NCBI RefSeq assembly: GCF_017876575.1
Contig: NZ_JAGIOE010000001.1
Span: 2,728,001-2,792,000, forward strand
Direction: 5' to 3'
Source: Paeniglutamicibacter psychrophenolicus
GTDB lineage: Bacteria; Actinomycetota; Actinomycetes; Actinomycetales; Micrococcaceae
DNA: 64,000 nucleotides
Shown piece after piece: positions 43,900 to 52,957 of the stretch; positions within the stretch are counted from its first letter, which is position 1, and each line of letters starts with the position of its first letter. The notes under the pieces are model-generated. The model saw only the letters and a program-made list of their open reading frames with translations. It had not been told where the DNA came from and did no database searches. Both the position numbers and the translations under genes were made by a program.

Positions 43900-44636
43900 G
43901 CTCGGTCCCACCGACCCTGCAACACGAACTGGCCCTGGCCGCTGCCGGCGGCCACCGCTTCATCGGCGCCGCCGACGAGGTGGGGCGCGGTTCGCTGGCC
44001 GGGCCGGTGTCCGTGGGCTACGTCGTGATCGACCCCGCGGCGGTTCCCGAGCTGCCCGGGGTGCGCGATTCGAAGCTGCTTTCCGATGCCGTGCGCCACG
44101 AGCTGGTCCCGGTGATCAAGTCCTGGGCCGCTGCCTGGGGCGTGGGGCACGCCAGTGCCGCGGAGATCGACGCACTGGGCCTGGTACCTGCGCTGCGCCT
44201 GGCCGGGTACCGTGCCGCCACCGCCGCGCACCGGGTGCAGCAGGCGGACGCGGTGCTGCTGGACGGGAACCTCGACTGGCTCTCGGCCACCGTCCAACCC
44301 ACGCTGCTCGATTCCCTGGTGCCCGGTTTCGGGGAACCGGAGGACATTGACGGGCTGCTGATCCCGGTCCGCACCCTGATCAAGGGCGACCTGCTGGCGC
44401 TGTCCATCGCCGCGGCCTCCGTTTTGGCCAAAGTCGAACGTGACGACCTCATGGATGGGTACGATCGCGATTACCCGGCGTACGGTTGGATACAGAACAA
44501 GGGGTATGGCACCACCGCCCACCGGGCGGGCATCCTCGCGCACGGCGCGAGCGAGTACCACCGCAAGACCTGGCAGCTGACACCCAAGTCGCCGGGAACA
44601 ACCAGCAAGGCGAAGGGCGAGGGGAGAACACCATGA
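43896..44636 (+). CDS. rnhB: ribonuclease HII
   Basis: Protein of 246 residues. RNase HII removes ribonucleotides from DNA and RNA primers. Catalytic acidic residues are visible in GAADEVGRGSLAGPV (near residue 27) and DSKLL, and in VLLDGNLD. Overlaps both lepB and the downstream DUF2469 gene by four bases, so all three are translationally coupled. Confidence 0.95.
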   Translation: MSSVPPTLQHELALAAAGGHRFIGAADEVGRGSLAGPVSVGYVVIDPAAVPELPGVRDSKLLSDAVRHELVPVIKSWAAAWGVGHASAAEIDALGLVPALRLAGYRAATAAHRVQQADAVLLDGNLDWLSATVQPTLLDSLVPGFGEPEDIDGLLIPVRTLIKGDLLALSIAAASVLAKVERDDLMDGYDRDYPAYGWIQNKGYGTTAHRAGILAHGASEYHRKTWQLTPKSPGTTSKAKGEGRTP

Positions 44637-44953
44637 GTGCCGAAGACCTGGAAAACTACGAAGCGGAACTCGAGCTGCAGCTCTACCGCGAATACAAGGA
44701 CGTGGCGAACCTCTTCAATTACGTCGTGGAAACCGAGCGGCGTTTTTACCTGGCCAACAACGTGGACCTCAAGACCCGGTCGGCCGACGGCGAGGTCTTC
44801 TTCGACCTCACGCTCACCGACGCCTGGGTCTGGGACGTCTACCGCACCGGCCGTTTCGTGCAGTCGGTGCGCATCGTGACCTTCAAGGACGTGAACATCG
44901 AGGAACTGAACCGCGTCGATGATCTGTCCATCCCCAAGGACGGGCTGAACTAG
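44633..44953 (+). CDS. DUF2469 family protein
   Basis: Protein of 106 residues starting MSAEDLENYEAELELQLYRE, a highly conserved actinobacterial family always near rnhB and yraN. Function unknown. It overlaps rnhB by four bases. In related genomes it is usually followed closely by yraN; here five accessory genes separate them. Confidence 0.93.
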   Translation: MSAEDLENYEAELELQLYREYKDVANLFNYVVETERRFYLANNVDLKTRSADGEVFFDLTLTDAWVWDVYRTGRFVQSVRIVTFKDVNIEELNRVDDLSIPKDGLN

Positions 44954-45082: not shown

Positions 45083-46054
45083 ATGAACGAGCAGCCAGGC
45101 ACCGAGAACCCCGACGGGGAAAACACAGGGGCACAGGAAGCCGGGAAGGTGTCCTTCGGCAGGATATCGGGCGGCAGCAGGAACGGGCTGCCCTTCCTCA
45201 GCACGCTGTCCTTCGAATCCGACGCCGGGGCCCCGGACGCCGGGGCCGGCAGGCAGGCCTTCGAGTCCGCAATCGCCGGCCTGAACACCGCGCTGCACGA
45301 ATACGGCCGGGTGCTGGGGACCCGCGCGCCGGACTTTGCTTCCGCACCGGGGCAGGGGAATCCAGACTCCGAGGTGCTGGCCGCCTCCGACACGGTGCAC
45401 AACGCGCTCGATGCCCTGGGCCAGGGCCACCGCGCCTGGACCGGCCGCTCGTTCCTGGAAGGCCCGCTGTATCGCGAGGTGCCGTTCGAACCCGGGGATC
45501 CGGATGCCTGGGCGCGGATGCTCGAAGCGGACGAGCTCGCCCGGGACCAGGAAGGGGATCGCTTCGGGCCGCGGCTCGATGAAGTGGGCGCCACGGTGCT
45601 GCTGGGCAGGTTGCTGCACGAGAGTGCGCACGAGGTGCTGCACCTGGGGACCGCGACGGTGCACAGCAACGGGGTGCTGTTGTCCTTCGACTACCTGAAC
45701 CTGCGCGGCGCCCACGAGGACGCCCTCGGCTGGTACCGGCGCAGCCACGAGAACCTCGGTGCCGTCGAACTCGCCCTGGAGCTGCTGGACCCCGCCACCG
45801 GGACCGGTTACCCCGGTGAGGTGCACGGGGGCGAGGGGAACGTGGAGCGCGGGTGCTACCGGCTGACCCACCGCTTCTGGATGTCGCGCGCCCTGGACGC
45901 CGACATGCTCACCGGAACCTTCACGGTCAGCGGCGCGCCCACCGCAGAGGGGCGCACCGAACCGCTGGCAATCGGGTTCGAGCTGGACACCGCGGTGCTG
46001 CGCGAGGCCGCCACCGGCATCCGCGCCTTCGGGAACCAAACACCGGGCGGCTGA
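45083..46054 (+). CDS. uncharacterised protein, paralogue A of a three-member local family
   Basis: Cytoplasmic protein of 323 residues without a signal peptide. It is clearly related to the gene at 48635 over nearly the whole length: shared features include a helical N-terminal half (AFESAIAGLNTAL), the core GATVLLGRLLH…HSNGVLLSFDYLNLRG (about 170–215), LTHRFW and the C-terminal end LREAATGIRAFGNQTPGG. GAGGAAG precedes the ATG at 45083. First gene of the five-gene insertion between DUF2469 and yraN. I do not recognise the family. Confidence 0.7.
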   Translation: MNEQPGTENPDGENTGAQEAGKVSFGRISGGSRNGLPFLSTLSFESDAGAPDAGAGRQAFESAIAGLNTALHEYGRVLGTRAPDFASAPGQGNPDSEVLAASDTVHNALDALGQGHRAWTGRSFLEGPLYREVPFEPGDPDAWARMLEADELARDQEGDRFGPRLDEVGATVLLGRLLHESAHEVLHLGTATVHSNGVLLSFDYLNLRGAHEDALGWYRRSHENLGAVELALELLDPATGTGYPGEVHGGEGNVERGCYRLTHRFWMSRALDADMLTGTFTVSGAPTAEGRTEPLAIGFELDTAVLREAATGIRAFGNQTPGG

Positions 46055-46269
46055 GGCGTTCCGCACAGTTGATTGCAGAACTTCACATCTCCTTTTGGCG
46101 GTGCTGGCCACTACCAACGCGCCAACAAAATGAGTACATTGAACCGTAATATCGCGTTCTAATTCAGATCATCCATTCGTCGCACGTATGGTTGATCCAA
46201 TGCCTTCGCCGGGCCGCCACAGCGGCCGAGCGCGGCATCGAGCAAAACCAGGACCATTGGGGGATCCGA

Positions 46270-47925
46270 GTGCAAAAGAAGAGAATCGCCGCAGTGCTGG
46301 CACTGGCCATCGCCGTGACCGGAAGCAGCACCGGATTCGTGTCGCCGGCGACCAGCCAGGTCCTCGCTCCGGCCGCGACAACGACCGGGACGATGCCGAC
46401 GTTGCTCGAACCGATGATGGGCTCGCCCGTGGGCATCGCCGCGAAAAAGGTGAACCTGAAGAAGGCCACCACCAACAACCTGAACCTGCGCAAGTCGCGC
46501 AGCGCCAAGGCCAAGGTCCTGCTGGTGATCCCGAAGAGCGCCGCGGTGGCCGTCACCGAGACCATCGGCACCTGGAGCAAGACCACGTACAAGGGCAAGG
46601 CCGGTTGGGTTGCCTCCAAGTACCTGAAGAACGCTCCCGCCGCGAAGAAGCCGGCACCCCAAAAGGCCGCACCCCAGGCGAAGGCCAAGCCCTCCGCCCT
46701 TAAGATCACCAAGAACAACCTCAACCTGCGCCAGGGCAAGAGCACCAAGACCAAGGCGTTGGTGACCATCCCGAAGAACACCACAATCACCGTCACCGCG
46801 ACCAGCGGCACCTGGAGCCAGACGAAGTACAAGGGCAAGACCGGCTGGGTGGCCTCCAGCTACCTCAAGAACGCCCCCGCCGCCAAGAAACCGGCACCCA
46901 AGCCACAGTCCGCCACGCACAGGTACACCACCGCCTTCACCACGCTGCGCAAGGGCGCATCGAAGACCAGCGAATCGCTTGGGGCCTACCAGCGCCGTGC
47001 CAAAGTTGAATACCTCGCGGCCTCCGGGTCCTGGACCAGGGTCAAGGTCTCTGGAAAGACCGGCTACATCGAATCCGCCCACCTTTCCAAGACCAACCCC
47101 GCCATCGTGAACCGCTGGCTGAAATCCACGCAGGTCGTGTACGCGGGGACAAACAACAAGTCGGCCAGGGTCACCACGGTGAAGCAGCACGCGAAGGTCG
47201 AATGGCTGCGCACCATTGGCGACTGGACCGGCATCCGGACGGGCAACGGCAACGGCTGGGTGCCGACCTCGACGCTGTCCAAGAGCACCATCGGCCCCAC
47301 CACCGCCAAGCCCCCGACACCCCGGGCCACCTACCGCTGGACCACGGCACCGGTCAACATCCGCAAGGGGTCGGACACCGGGCACAAGAGCCTGGGCCTG
47401 GTCCCGGCCAACGAGCGGGTCACCTACCTCAAAACCGCCAACGGCTGGTCGAACGTGGTCTCCTCCAAGGGCACCGGCTGGATCTCCAACCAATACCTGG
47501 ACAAGGAAGGCCAGCACTCCTTCGCCGTCTACGGGACCCTGCGCAAGGGGCAATCGGCGTACTACATCCTCAAGGGCAAGACCTCGAAGGAAACCAAGAC
47601 AACGATCGCCTCCCACCGCATGTACCTGCAGCCGAACAAGACCTGGCTCTCCTACGTCATCCCCAGCAAGAGCGCCTCCGACAAGGTGGTTGTCGAGCGG
47701 ATGGAAATCAAGCCGGCCAGCTACCGGGCGACCGTGGTGAACATGGACAAGTGGGAGCGCTTTGACCCCAACAAGCCGCTGGCCGACCAGAACTACAACC
47801 GCGTGCTGGTCACCGACAGGGACGGCCACAGGTCCTGGGCCTACCTGGGATCGAAGAAGATCGGCAGCTACCTGACCAAAAACGGAATCCGTGTGACTTC
47901 CGGCGACTACCTGAAGAGGTTCTGA
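46270..47925 (+). CDS. exported protein with five SH3b repeats and a gamma-glutamylcyclotransferase-like domain
   Basis: Protein of 551 residues with a signal peptide (AAVLALAIAVTG) and five bacterial SH3 repeats at about 60–125, 145–210, 220–275, 285–345 and 365–415; each has an LNLR/LRK/NIRKG-type start and a TGW(V/I)xSxYL-type end. The C-terminal part (about 420–540) starts FAVYGTLRKGQ, the signature of the gamma-glutamylcyclotransferase/AIG2 fold, and contains MDKWERF at the place of the catalytic glutamate. SH3b repeats bind the cell wall or peptides. GTG at 46270 follows GGGGGA. Such a fusion, outside the cell, is unusual. Downstream gene starts two bases after the stop. Confidence 0.75.
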   Translation: MQKKRIAAVLALAIAVTGSSTGFVSPATSQVLAPAATTTGTMPTLLEPMMGSPVGIAAKKVNLKKATTNNLNLRKSRSAKAKVLLVIPKSAAVAVTETIGTWSKTTYKGKAGWVASKYLKNAPAAKKPAPQKAAPQAKAKPSALKITKNNLNLRQGKSTKTKALVTIPKNTTITVTATSGTWSQTKYKGKTGWVASSYLKNAPAAKKPAPKPQSATHRYTTAFTTLRKGASKTSESLGAYQRRAKVEYLAASGSWTRVKVSGKTGYIESAHLSKTNPAIVNRWLKSTQVVYAGTNNKSARVTTVKQHAKVEWLRTIGDWTGIRTGNGNGWVPTSTLSKSTIGPTTAKPPTPRATYRWTTAPVNIRKGSDTGHKSLGLVPANERVTYLKTANGWSNVVSSKGTGWISNQYLDKEGQHSFAVYGTLRKGQSAYYILKGKTSKETKTTIASHRMYLQPNKTWLSYVIPSKSASDKVVVERMEIKPASYRATVVNMDKWERFDPNKPLADQNYNRVLVTDRDGHRSWAYLGSKKIGSYLTKNGIRVTSGDYLKRF

Positions 47926-47927
47926 GC

Positions 47928-48584
47928 ATGAAGAAGCAGGGCAAGATCATCACCGGCGTCGTCTCATCCGCTGCGGCAGTGGGCCTGGTGGCGTGGGGCA
48001 TCGGATTCGCCGGTGCGGCCAACAGCAATGAATGGGAGCTTCCCGGCGACCTGGTGGCCGGGCCCGCGATCGCCGAGGCCAACCCGTCCACCGGCACCGA
48101 GGTGAAAACGGACAGGTTCGACAACGTGCAGAAGAAGGTCGGCGAAAAGGCCGGCCTCATCGACGAAAAGACCAACAAGAGCTACTTCACCATCGAGGTC
48201 ACCAAGACGCAGCTGCTCTCCAGCTGCACCTCGCGCGTGGGAAACCAGCAGCTGGCCCCGACCCGCTCCAGGTTCCTGGTCCTGGACGTCAAGGCAACCC
48301 TGGACGCCTCGGTCTCCGAACAGGTAGGCGGCAGCACCAAGGACCTGTTCATGCCGCTGGTCGCAGAGGCGTTCTCGGTGACCACCTCCAGCGGTACGCC
48401 GGACCGCAACGTCACCTCGGAAACGGCCTGGGGCTGCTTCGACGACTCGGTGTTGTTGCCGCCAGTACTCAACCCCGGCCAAAGCGTCAAGGGCAAGGTC
48501 GTCCTGGATGTGGGCGCACCCAAGGGCAAGGTCGCCTACGACCCCGAGGACAACGGCGGCTGGTCCTGGCCCTACGGCGGGTAG
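47928..48584 (+). CDS. exported hypothetical protein, possibly DUF4352-like
   Basis: Protein of 218 residues with an N-terminal signal or anchor segment (IITGVVSSAAAVGLVAWGIGF). The remainder has the alternating strand pattern of a small Ig-like DUF4352/MPT63-type domain (RFLVLDVKATLDASV; NPGQSVKGKVVLDVGAP) with two cysteines that could pair. The start is two bases after the stop of the SH3b gene, so the two are co-translated and probably act together on the cell surface. Confidence 0.65.
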   Translation: MKKQGKIITGVVSSAAAVGLVAWGIGFAGAANSNEWELPGDLVAGPAIAEANPSTGTEVKTDRFDNVQKKVGEKAGLIDEKTNKSYFTIEVTKTQLLSSCTSRVGNQQLAPTRSRFLVLDVKATLDASVSEQVGGSTKDLFMPLVAEAFSVTTSSGTPDRNVTSETAWGCFDDSVLLPPVLNPGQSVKGKVVLDVGAPKGKVAYDPEDNGGWSWPYGG

Positions 48585-48634
48585 CCCGGAGCAAACGCAC
48601 TTACCACCGAGTCACCGAAGGAGCCCCCACGATC

Positions 48635-49603
48635 ATGAGCGAGCAGCCAGGCAATCCCGACCCCGAGGACCCCAATGGTTCAGGTGATGCGCACGGGGAA
48701 GAACCTGAAGGCGAGGACTTCGGGTTCCTCGTCGGCTCAGACGGCTACGAGAGCTCGCTGTCCCTCGACCTCGGCGGCGTCGAGCACGATCCCGAGGTCG
48801 GCAAGCGTGCCTTCGATGCCTCCATCCCCGCCCTGAACGCGGCACTGCTGGACTACGCCCACGCATTGGAGGCGCGCCAGGGACGGATCTCCGACGCCCT
48901 GCTCCGGCCCGAGCTGGCACCCGAGCTGTTCACCGCCTCCGGCGGCGTCCACGCGGCGCTTGACGAGCTATTGGTCGCGCACCAGGTGTACACCGGTGAG
49001 GGCCTGCCCGAGGTGCCGCCACAGCGGTCACTCCCGGACGAGCCAACCGCCCCGGAGGACTGGGCGGAACTTGTTGCGGCCATCGAGGCCACCGAGGATG
49101 CCGACGACACGCACTGGCCGCGCCCCACCGAGCTCGGCGCCACCGTGATCCTGGACCACGTCATCCACCAAACACCGACCGAGTTCCTGCGGCTGGACAC
49201 CGCGCAGGTCTTCGGCAACGGGGTGCTGCTGATGATCGACTGCGTCGTGGTGCGCGGCGTGCGCGAAGACGGATTGATATGGTTCCGGCGCAGCAACGAA
49301 CAGCACGGGAACGTCGAGATCACCCTGGAGCTTCGCGATGCGGACACCGGCGCGCCGCAGCCCTGCGCGCCACACCGGGCCGACGGGAACGTGGGGCCGC
49401 ACTCCTACACGCTGAACCACCAATTCTGGATCCATCCCGCACCGGAAGCCGAGGAGCTCGCCGGGACCGTTACGGTCCACGACGCGATCGGACCCGACGG
49501 CACTGCAGAACCCCTGGAGGTCCAATTCCGGTTGGCCACCTCCGCGCTGCGCGAGGCGGCACAACGCATCCGCACCTTCGGCAACCGGGAGCCGGGCACA
49601 TGA
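48635..49603 (+). CDS. uncharacterised protein, paralogue B of the local family
   Basis: Cytoplasmic protein of 322 residues. It shares with the 45083 gene the acidic N-terminus, KRAFDASIPALNAAL, the core GATVILDHVIH…FGNGVLLMIDCVVVRG, LNHQFW and the ending REAAQRIRTFGN. AAGGAG lies eleven bases before the ATG. It overlaps the next gene by four bases. Function unknown; a beta-sandwich core is suggested by the strand-like pattern. Confidence 0.7.
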   Translation: MSEQPGNPDPEDPNGSGDAHGEEPEGEDFGFLVGSDGYESSLSLDLGGVEHDPEVGKRAFDASIPALNAALLDYAHALEARQGRISDALLRPELAPELFTASGGVHAALDELLVAHQVYTGEGLPEVPPQRSLPDEPTAPEDWAELVAAIEATEDADDTHWPRPTELGATVILDHVIHQTPTEFLRLDTAQVFGNGVLLMIDCVVVRGVREDGLIWFRRSNEQHGNVEITLELRDADTGAPQPCAPHRADGNVGPHSYTLNHQFWIHPAPEAEELAGTVTVHDAIGPDGTAEPLEVQFRLATSALREAAQRIRTFGNREPGT

Positions 49604-50094
49604 ACCCCGGTTCCCCGCTCGATCCCGTCCCCGCAACCGAGGTGCCCTTCGTGCTCGCCTTCAACCGGGTGCTGCACCGGGACCAGCGGCACCGGCTGTC
49701 CCTGCGCGAGGCCCGCGTCCACTCCACCGGCGCCGTGCTGGTCCTGGACCGCGTCTTCCACCGCCTGCCCGCCGAGGAGCAGCTGGCCTACCGCCAGGCG
49801 TTGATGGACTCCTACGCGGCAGGGGAAGGGGAACTCGTGGCGCTTGACGCGGACGGGACCGAAACGGTCCTCGGCCTGCTCGCCGGCGAATCAGCGGAAG
49901 ACCGCAGCGGAAGCCACGCCCGCCTCGAGCACTGGGTGCCGGGCACCTTCGGAACGGCGCCCCTGCCGCTGTGCCTGCGCGGCACCGACCTCCCGCGCGA
50001 GGTCGAATTCGAGATCGACGGGCACCTTCTTCGTGTGGCCCAGTCCCAGGTCCATTCGACCGAAACCTCCGGGCTCGGCTTTCCCCTGACCTGA
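49600..50094 (+). CDS. uncharacterised protein, short paralogue C of the local family
   Basis: Protein of 164 residues corresponding to only the core half of paralogues A and B: VPFVLAFNRVLH…VHSTGAVLVLDRVFHR lines up with their GATVLLGRLLH…VHSNGVLLSFDYL, and the C-terminal FEIDGHLLRVAQSQV with their FELDTAVLREAAT. It is translationally coupled to paralogue B by a four-base overlap, suggesting that they form a complex. Last gene of the insertion before yraN. Confidence 0.65.
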   Translation: MNPGSPLDPVPATEVPFVLAFNRVLHRDQRHRLSLREARVHSTGAVLVLDRVFHRLPAEEQLAYRQALMDSYAAGEGELVALDADGTETVLGLLAGESAEDRSGSHARLEHWVPGTFGTAPLPLCLRGTDLPREVEFEIDGHLLRVAQSQVHSTETSGLGFPLT

Positions 50095-50248: not shown

Positions 50249-50608
50249 ATGAACCACAACCAGGAACTCGGTGCCAAAGGTGAGGAGCTTGCGGCCAGCT
50301 ACCTGCTCAACGCCGGCTACACAGTGCTGGAGCGCAATTGGCGCTGCAACCTCGGCGAGCTGGACATCGTTGCCGAGACCGACGGGCAGGTCATCGGCGT
50401 CGAGGTCAAGACCCGCAGCTCGATGGGCTTCGGGCACCCGGCCGAGGCGGTGAACCCGGCCAAGCTGCGCAGGCTCTCGCGCCTGGTGCGGCGCTGGTGC
50501 GTGACCCATCGCCGCAATCCGTGCGCCGTGCGGGTGGACGTGGTGGCGATCCTGATGCCGCCGGGTGCGGAACCCAGCATCGAGCACCTGGTGGGGGTCG
50601 AGTCATGA
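50249..50608 (+). CDS. yraN: YraN family protein (UPF0102)
   Basis: Protein of 119 residues of the restriction-endonuclease-like fold: GELDIVA and VEVKTRSS contain the D-ExK nuclease residues. Function unproven; often near comM and rnhB. ATG at 50249 follows CAGGAG. Its stop overlaps comM by four bases. Confidence 0.92.
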   Translation: MNHNQELGAKGEELAASYLLNAGYTVLERNWRCNLGELDIVAETDGQVIGVEVKTRSSMGFGHPAEAVNPAKLRRLSRLVRRWCVTHRRNPCAVRVDVVAILMPPGAEPSIEHLVGVES

Positions 50609-52175: not shown

Positions 52176-52793
52176 CTACCCGGGGATGTCGATGACCTCG
52201 CCGTTGCGCGGCAGCGCCGAGTTGAACGTCAGGGGCACCGCGTGGGCGGCGTCGACGTCGCGGATGTCGATGGCTTGGATGTGGACGTGGGGTTCGGTGC
52301 TGTTGCCGGAGTTTCCGCAGCGACCGATCATCTGGCCGGTGGTTACGCGCTGGCCCGGCCGGACCGCGATGCTTCCTCGTTGGAGGTGGCAGAGGGCCAC
52401 CACGCCGCCGTGGCTCTCGATCAAGAGATGGTTTCCGGCCAGCGCCTTCCAGCCGGCCCGGGCGCGGCGCTGCTGGGTCAGCGCGTAGCCGATCGAGGGC
52501 GGACCGCGATATGCGGCGTGGTCGGGCTCGGAGTCGTGGACGGCTACGACGATTCCGTCGATGGGTGCCAGCAGCGGGCGCCCGAAGCCGGGAAAGTTCT
52601 CGGGCGGTTCGGGACGCATGAGGGCGGCGAAGGTGATCGGTGCGGTGCCTCCGGCCTCGTTGACCGGTACGAAGTCGATGGCGTAGGAGGTGGCGAACAG
52701 TGTCGTGCCGTGGCTGGGCACGCGGTTGGCGGGGCTGTTTTGGGTGAGCCAGCGCCCGGTGAACGGGTATTCCAGGTCCATGGAGGCTGCCAT
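52176..52793 (-). CDS. M23-type metallopeptidase domain protein
   Basis: Protein of 205 residues with a LytM/M23-like fold: HGTT…YAIDF near residues 28–43 (Zn-ligand region), HLQRGS near 136 and EPHVHIQ near 174. M23 enzymes cut glycyl peptide bonds in cell walls. No signal peptide is seen, so the protein may be cytoplasmic or use another route. ATG at 52793 follows GAGAGGA; an in-frame upstream start is less likely. Convergent with comM. Confidence 0.72.
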   Translation of the reverse strand: MAASMDLEYPFTGRWLTQNSPANRVPSHGTTLFATSYAIDFVPVNEAGGTAPITFAALMRPEPPENFPGFGRPLLAPIDGIVVAVHDSEPDHAAYRGPPSIGYALTQQRRARAGWKALAGNHLLIESHGGVVALCHLQRGSIAVRPGQRVTTGQMIGRCGNSGNSTEPHVHIQAIDIRDVDAAHAVPLTFNSALPRNGEVIDIPG

Positions 52794-52957
52794 GGGGTTC
52801 CTCTCGGCAGGCGGTGCCCAGTCCATGAACGGGTGGCGCCCGTGGCTGGCTCGTGCCCACAGTCTGCCACCGCTTTCACCTTCGCACCCACCGTAGGCTC
52901 TCCTTCCGGTCGAACGCCCGCTGGCCGGGGCCCCAGCTGTTCAAGACCGTTCCATTG

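Follow-up and report, generated by a model that had tools for sequence, protein, structure and literature searches.

The window, a stretch of 64,000 nucleotides from Paeniglutamicibacter psychrophenolicus, contains five tightly packed open reading frames between the gene for a DUF2469 protein (44636–44953, + strand) and yraN (50249–50608, + strand). All five lie on the + strand at the positions given in the first-pass annotation and are termed here A to E: gene A (45083–46054) encodes 323 residues, gene B (46270–47925, with a GTG start) 551, gene C (47928–48584) 218, gene D (48635–49603) 322 and gene E (49600–50094) 164. The start of C lies 2 bases beyond the stop of B, 50 nt separate C from D, and the stop codon of D overlaps the start codon of E in the sequence ATGA. 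The gaps of 2 nt and 50 nt would allow B, C, D and E to be read as one transcript; a scan for terminator-like sites on the + strand found none inside this run and yielded fewer sites than shuffles. The dN/dS values for close species pairs, which carry no significance test, are 0.36–0.55 for A, 0.26–0.33 for B, 0.08–0.13 for C, 0.24–0.35 for D and 0.45–0.51 for E; all fall below 1, which fits real genes.

Close spacing of DUF2469 and yraN is the norm in the family. Among 28 DUF2469 loci, the best-scoring from 38 genomes with a DUF2469 match and all outside the genus, the gap is 104–276 nt in 21 and 587 and 1079 nt in two, and in five YraN is absent within 1.5 kb of DUF2469. With the short gap as the usual state, the gene order is interrupted in the window, as had been proposed.

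The putatively exported pair B and C

Protein B combines two modules behind a hydrophobic N-terminal segment that appears signal-like by eye. Five SH3_3 stretches (PF08239; E-value 1.2e-46, 157.1 bits against a cut-off of 27) are followed by a GGACT domain (PF06094; 1.4e-8, 35.7 bits against 22.8) that spans residues 419–548 in the Pfam coordinates (47524–47913, + strand), and the net charge of the protein is +70. The repeats place B, well over the cut-off, with the bacterial SH3b wall-binding modules; proteins of this kind usually bear a peptidase or amidase, whereas in B the repeats carry a GGACT domain. The second likeness is to mouse A2LD1 GGACT (AIG2-like, PF06094; PDB 1vkb and 2kl2), with which B shares the Pfam match, the YGTL motif and the catalytic Glu. 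To our knowledge, characterised GGACTs are single-domain and cytosolic; B adds an export-type N-terminus, wall-binding repeats and a partner, C.

The residues expected of the active site are well conserved. The substrate-binding YGxL motif is present as YGTL at residues 421–424, and neither YGTL nor the catalytic Glu varies across 11 GGACT sequences of the genus. Across a set of 15 GGACT domains, YGTL is exact in 13, while D-x-[WYF]-E and the catalytic Glu within it are retained in all; the equivalent of Tyr115 is Phe in one domain, and the first Tyr of the motif is Phe in one. The proposed catalytic residue of B is E496 (codon 47755–47757, + strand), put forward from this invariance and from an alignment to Glu82 of mouse GGACT (in LDDFE), a residue of the catalytic site according to PMC2954230. 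In profile comparisons of B with solved GGACT structures the best E-value is 0.0026 (1v30) and mouse GGACT matches at 0.21 and 0.31, the latter giving the Glu82 alignment; these matches are all weak, and the mouse ones in particular make the placement opposite Glu82 depend on a weak alignment. The SH3b repeats and the charge of +70 together suggest a location in the wall, and from its sequence B is best read as a wall-tethered γ-glutamyl(amine) cyclotransferase with a partner protein, of presumed activity and substrate.

Protein C also begins with a signal-like segment. Cys100 and Cys170 are invariant in 13 aligned members, and the C-terminus carries a GGWSWPY motif. C itself (P0003) has no match in Pfam, the 13 members give one unrelated weak match at E 10, and a search of the PDB by sequence returned no relatives. 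An export-type N-terminus, a β-rich pattern as judged by eye and the two conserved cysteines resemble features of DUF4352-type secreted Ig-like proteins; C differs from these in giving no Pfam profile match, and the likeness serves as a lead only. An Ig-like fold for C is a guess.

The first-pass annotation had described B and C as an exported-type pair 2 bases apart, an SH3b×5 protein with a GGCT-like domain beside a small protein, and had proposed that they belong together and act toward the cell wall. That proposal is supported by adjacency across genera, exchanged anchors and gene fusion. We examined 18 C loci outside the slot, picked from 66 genomes and mostly among the better-scoring (five further better-scoring genomes, G051, G169, G191, G245 and G261, and most weak matches were left out), and an SH3b–GGACT gene adjoins C in 14 of them; four distant C relatives (E-values 2e-10 to 3e-14) have no adjoining GGACT. 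Outside the family, six GGACT matches comprise three with a separate C gene directly downstream, two in which a C-like tail is part of the GGACT protein itself (a GGACT–C fusion) and one with no C in its 1.5-kb flank. A broadened C profile finds the fused tails at 2.9e-11 and 1.4e-6 (Z=402), against 0.095 for the best of 400 shuffles; with the narrow C profile the tail at locus L277 is found only at 2.5e-4 and that at L281 is missed. FG-GAP lies above the Pfam cut-off in three of the six proteins, one of which also carries SLH; a fourth has a weak FG-GAP match under the cut-off and two have none. The anchor is exchanged: it is SH3b in Micrococcaceae, and in other families of the order SH3b gives way to FG-GAP in these three of six, once together with SLH. 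B and C form a two-gene module with a separate history.

The paralogues A, D and E and their wider family

The three remaining proteins are paralogues, as the first reading of the sequence had held. A and D share 40% identity over their full length (E-value 2e-68), and E gives a match of 2e-7 to A and of 3e-4 to D. When E is left out of a profile built from slot relatives, the profile still retrieves it at 1.4e-17 in this genome. E consists of the core only and, given the ATGA overlap, stands in a coupled arrangement with D, again as described. The motifs said to be common to all three hold in part: LREAA...FGN occurs in A and D and is absent from E, and GATVLL...HxxGVLL is exact only in A, reading GATVIL...VFGNGVLL in D and being more divergent in E.

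None of the three had been recognised at first, which stands for named families: A has no significant match in Pfam, NCBIfam, PADLOC or PHROG and no export signal was seen in it, and nothing significant came from PHROG for any of A, C, D and E. It does not stand for families at large, since the core is a divergent branch of a wide uncharacterised family. The A/D profile aligns to the wide-family profile over 153 columns (hhalign probability 96.3%, E 1.6e-9), and one wide-family member finds A at 2e-4. Searched at E 1e-5 in this genome, with seven candidates scored per genome, the wide-family profile did not return A, D or E. The WLWPLPP motif and Gly-rich loop are missing in all three, which marks them as a divergent branch of the superfamily and not as typical members. 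The core can be aligned and the succession of strands is similar in the predicted folds; A and D differ in adding a helical N-terminal region, and the three genes here make up a paralogue group within one slot. Three formerly unrecognised proteins are now joined to a family found in at least 37 of 394 genomes of the class, with records from Kineococcus, Kineosporia, Nostocoides, Frankiales, Acidimicrobiia and Nanopelagicales; the members scanned match no Pfam or NCBIfam model.

The core is predicted to be an Ig-like β-sandwich. The model of A places it at residues ~168–310, behind a predicted helical region at ~53–157, and a model of a wide-family member built without A, D and E reaches pLDDT 87.7 and pTM 0.82. 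For both the model of A (AF2) and this one the top solved match is 3fbq, at Z 10.7 (118 aligned, 3.0 Å) and Z 8.9 (114 aligned, 3.0 Å). PMC6066255 identifies 3fbq as the extracellular domain of BAS1627, an ECF anti-sigma factor. Only a common β-sandwich arrangement is shared, at 13–18% identity in the structural alignments, and 3fbq is the extracytoplasmic portion of a membrane protein, unlike the presumably cytoplasmic A, D and E. Further fold matches (adaptin ears, copper-binding P19/CrdA, Ig domains, efflux-adaptor helical hairpins) were set aside as common arrangements, and the one PDB match to the core by sequence was judged to be chance.

Recurrent neighbours of the wide family are few. 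A crude gene caller recovered the core gene at 54 of 61 wide-family loci (those dropped were L117, L126, L128, L131, L168, L192 and L202), and the only neighbourhood conserved gene by gene is that of six Frankiales/Frankiaceae MAGs. Other neighbour clusters join three to five loci at variable distance, one of them being a gene three to four places off in three distinct genomes; cluster counts are inflated because the same contigs occur twice (for example L112/L198, L113/L197, L114/L200, L118/L196 and L132/L185). No C-like or GGACT-like gene was found among the genes called around the 61 loci.

Relationship between the two gene sets and possible roles

Within the genus, the two sets of genes can be told apart by their histories. 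Four of 15 genomes (G094, G180, G200 and G210) hold A/E-type genes in the slot and B–C elsewhere, the GGACT and C matches of G210 being in pieces, and on a tree of the 15 genomes this is the arrangement of the deepest lineages. The presence of B–C in the slot requires one change on that tree, a single entry, after which the pair was kept there in 11 genomes, in G022 only as a remnant; the G022 slot is occupied instead by a RES-domain gene and a small gene that partners it. In G168, A has been lost, and D and B–C are retained. A, D and E here are subject to fast evolution, duplication and decay. Beyond the genus, ten genomes from other genera carry B–C, and nothing in them matches A at E 0.001.

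The insertion is probably composed of two unrelated modules side by side, a wall-cutting B–C pair and a cytoplasmic, binding-type A/D/E group, a reading to which we give a probability of roughly 0.6. B would be exported and retained in the wall by its five SH3b repeats and very basic composition, where its GGACT domain may cut exposed N-terminal γ-glutamyl-amine links to release 5-oxoproline. The peptidoglycan of Paeniglutamicibacter has a bridge with glutamate, and likely substrates would be wall peptides such as the γ-glutamyl-ε-lysine of uncrosslinked bridges or, alternatively, the γ-D-Glu-Lys remaining after L-Ala-D-Glu cleavage. C may be an exported, probably disulphide-bearing, Ig-like partner of B, and the two are probably made from one transcript. 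A, D and E would be cytoplasmic Ig-like β-sandwich proteins, a divergent branch of the widespread actinobacterial family; they probably serve as modules for protein binding, assembling with themselves or in pairs, with D and E translationally coupled, and appear to evolve by birth and death.

The first-pass annotation had instead treated all five genes as one functional unit, for example a wall sensing or modification system. In such a unit A, D and E might be cytoplasmic regulators or chaperones that serve the exported B–C. Tight packing and a possible B–C–D–E transcript favour such a unit, as does the retention of B–C in the slot; a C relative is present in 15 of 15 genus genomes and an A/D/E gene in 14, together in 14, so that the two modules do co-occur within the genus. 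Against it stand the four genomes in which the sets lie apart, the single entry of B–C, the loss of A in G168 with D and B–C persisting, and unequal constraint, C being lower in dN/dS than A and E. The families also occur largely without each other, B–C lacking A in ten genomes and the core family lacking any called C- or GGACT-like gene nearby, which is largely the outcome that the first-pass annotation had named as counting against its own reading. On this separability we reject the one-unit reading, which we regard as improbable; a unit-like gene cluster can be an accident of location. The suggestion of a defence module fares worse still. Tandem, fast-evolving paralogues and the RES-domain gene of G022 might be expected if the slot were variable and A, D and E served in immunity or against phages, but at E 1 PADLOC matched none of the five proteins to any family, no recurrent defence-like neighbours were noticed at the wide-family loci, and D is unmatched in plasmids and the wide family in viral contigs. 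The PADLOC result, together with that from PHROG for A, C, D and E, led us to reject this candidate, and we consider it very improbable.

The role of B within the two-module reading admits other possibilities. B could scavenge extracellular γ-glutamyl compounds (glutathione, γ-glutamyl peptides, poly-γ-glutamate) for nutrition instead of editing the wall: the substrates of the GGCT/GGACT superfamily are small γ-glutamyl compounds, and a wall-bound enzyme could still use those that diffuse to it. The wall-binding repeats, the strong positive charge and the replacement of SH3b by SLH or FG-GAP favour a bound target, however, and we think scavenging unlikely. It is similarly doubtful that the GGACT domain is a non-enzymatic binding domain and B–C a structural or adhesive surface pair. 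The weak similarity to characterised GGACTs, the long repeat regions and the two Phe substitutions point that way, but the motif and Glu are invariant in the 11 genus sequences and the Glu persists in every domain of the wider set. At the other extreme is a bolder and rather speculative proposal, that B–C would be a new wall-editing system that clips N-terminal γ-linked Glu as pyroglutamate and irreversibly removes cross-linking sites, with C as obligate activator or substrate-presenter and the A/D/E core as a general actinobacterial intracellular binding module. Were B active, it would be a wall-located γ-glutamyl cyclotransferase, a chemistry for which no description in the cell wall was found among the literature matches listed, and the conserved, unnamed exported GGACT–C pair would be testable in soil bacteria.

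A mobile origin of the insertion was also considered and rejected for C, D and the wide family: neither D (P0004) nor C has a match in the plasmid search, and neither C nor the wide family in viral contigs. B gives partial matches, confined to the SH3b region, in plasmids and in one phage record.

Genes between DUF2469 and yraN

The first-pass annotation had described a five-gene insertion between the DUF2469 gene and yraN, and all five genes are present there on the forward strand, at the positions it gave. This interval, here termed the slot, is bounded upstream by the DUF2469 gene (44636–44953, +) and downstream by yraN (50249–50608, +), and holds genes A (45083–46054, 323 aa), B (46270–47925, 551 aa), C (47928–48584, 218 aa), D (48635–49603, 322 aa) and E (49600–50094, 164 aa). 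A and D are paralogous along their full length (40% identity, E = 2e-68); E consists only of the core, a predicted Ig-like beta-sandwich domain, and its similarity to A and D is weak but real. The start of E overlaps the stop codon of D as ATGA, and two bases separate B from C. B comprises five SH3b repeats and a gamma-glutamyl(amine) cyclotransferase domain (GGACT; PF06094), the latter above the Pfam cut-off, and A, C, D and E gave no significant match in Pfam, NCBIfam, PADLOC or PHROGs. In a comparison of close species dN/dS is below 1 for all five genes, being low for C (0.08–0.13) and higher for A and E (0.36–0.55). An M23 peptidase gene, another probable wall enzyme close to the slot, lies just past comM (52176–52826, −).

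Outside the genus the usual gene order is the norm, with a DUF2469–yraN gap of 104–276 nt in 21 of 28 loci and of 587 and 1079 nt in two more. yraN was not found within 1.5 kb of DUF2469 in the other five (L258, L259, L260, L266 and L268, each from a genome of another genus), where unrelated genes follow DUF2469, so the boundary is variable more widely.

Across the 15 genus genomes surveyed, the slot contains at least one A/D/E gene in 14; in G200 this gene adjoins DUF2469, and yraN was not found within the stretch fetched. The exception, G022, retains a broken B fragment with C, and in A's place a 196-aa gene without a Pfam match overlaps a RES-domain gene (PF08808, 3.3e-9; L087:7001–8229), a toxin–antitoxin-like arrangement. 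B–C lies inside the slot in 10 genomes, in addition to the G022 remnant, and is present twice in G141, G190 and G156. Four slots (G094, G180, G200 and G210) have A/E-type genes only, with B–C located elsewhere and, in G210, in pieces. The flanking genes of this outside site are common to G180 and G210, the upstream one resembling kdpA. In G200, transposase-like reading frames, recognized by eye, fall within the region encoding the SH3b part of B (L227:1834–2743), so that this B looks interrupted. Decay also affects A, which is broken in G050, and D, which is split into two pieces in G156; A is missing from the slot in G168 and G156. A tandem DUF2469 duplication stands upstream of the slot in G126 and G074 (L040 and L041, with 89% and 96% identity to the copy in the window).

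On a genus tree built from four flanking proteins, with the root placed on the long-branched G200, the presence of B–C in the slot maps to a single change, on the branch leading to 11 genomes; its support of 94/95 is marginally short of the level marked with a star. The core tree pairs D with G219's slot gene, and E with the E of G210, indicating that the paralogues are subject to turnover and predate today's arrangement.

The B–C pair and its relatives

C has relatives in 66 of the 295 family genomes, spread over 15 of 32 genera. Eighteen C loci outside the slot were read, 14 of them better-scoring and four distant, leaving out the better-scoring genomes G051, G169, G191, G245 and G261. An SH3b–GGACT gene adjoins C in all 14 better-scoring loci, in reversed order in G003 and twice in G181; it is not beside C in the four distant loci. 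A GGACT profile search of 248 order-level genomes returned six matches apart from that of the window, each of them outside the family. A separate C gene lies directly downstream in three, one has no C in the flank fetched, and two of the proteins (G1025 and G1052) end in a C-like domain. Against a C profile widened to include relatives, these fused domains score 2.9e-11 and 1.4e-6 (Z = 402), the best of 400 shuffles scoring 0.095; a narrow C profile found the first tail at 2.5e-4 only and missed the second. In both (L277 and L281) one chain joins FG-GAP repeats, GGACT and the C-like domain, the latter two encoded by separate genes in the window. In L279 (G322) and L278 (G305) the GGACT gene is followed by two consecutive C-like matches, and an SLH domain together with FG-GAP repeats anchors the L279 protein. 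Three of the six proteins have FG-GAP repeats that exceed the Pfam cut-off (one of these with SLH as well), a fourth has a weak match below it and two have none. The anchor repeats thus differ among these proteins: GGACT and C form the constant part, and the anchor is exchangeable.

The YGTL motif is exact in 13 of 15 GGACT domains and the glutamate of D-x-[WYF]-E is kept in all 15. In a weak alignment this residue of B corresponds to Glu82 of mouse GGACT, which PMC2954230 lists as belonging to the catalytic site. Judged by these residues, the active site looks intact. B has a net charge of +70, and two cysteines of C are conserved in 13 of 13 aligned members.

The core family of A, D and E

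When 295 family genomes were searched with protein A (P0001), relatives were confined to 13 of the 15 genus genomes plus a single further genome, G137, whose protein is single-domain (202 aa). With the latter as query, matches appeared in 17 of 198 order genomes, the window's included. The wider actinobacterial family with this core occurs in at least 37 of 394 class genomes and at least 19 of 138 genera, the class count being a lower bound with few candidates scored; it is also present in 21 named loci, from Kineococcus, Kineosporia, Nostocoides, Frankiales, Acidimicrobiia, Nanopelagicales and others. Its profile matches the A/D profile at 96.3% (E = 1.6e-9). Two results count against this kinship: a search of class genomes with the wide-family profile at 1e-5, few candidates being scored, did not return A, D or E, and all three are without the WLWPLPP motif.

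The model of A (pLDDT 74 overall) has N-terminal helices and a beta-sandwich at about 168–310, where pLDDT is mostly 76–96, except for 52–57 at 211–230; the underlying alignment includes wide-family members. A wide-family member modelled without A, D or E (pLDDT 87.7, pTM 0.82) has a similar succession of strands. The best solved match of both models is 3fbq (Z 10.7 for A, 8.9 for the wide-family model), which comes from an anti-sigma ectodomain (PMC6066255). The match of these predicted structures gives the fold class of the core, not its function. Recurrent neighbours of wide-family loci are few. In one member (L189, from G654), 584 aa long, ankyrin repeats and DUF6461 accompany the core, and a second long member scanned (L174, 372 aa) carries an additional C-terminal region that matches no Pfam family. 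The core may be an intracellular protein-binding module, with which the few recurrent neighbours and these architectures fit.

Two modules and a possible mechanism

A/D/E and B–C co-occur within the genus, as a lineage-specific link between the two modules would predict, yet such a link is improbable: ten B–C genomes of other genera (G003, G010, G017, G040, G055, G095, G157, G181, G229 and G253) are absent from the matches to A among the same 295 family genomes, four other-genus Micrococcaceae (G031, G039, G063 and G137) have the core and are not in the C list, and none of the genes called across 61 wide-family loci, a set that includes duplicates, is C- or GGACT-like.

Beyond the observed families, residues, B–C pairing, fusion and history, a mechanism can be proposed in which B would be exported and active as a cyclotransferase on a wall gamma-glutamyl-amine, C would assist B, and A, D and E would bind proteins. 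Literature searches on this combination gave nothing relevant among the matches listed. To act, GGACT needs the alpha-amino group of the gamma-linked glutamate to be free; plausible wall targets are therefore uncrosslinked bridges with a terminal Glu, or stems cleaved at the L-Ala–D-Glu bond.
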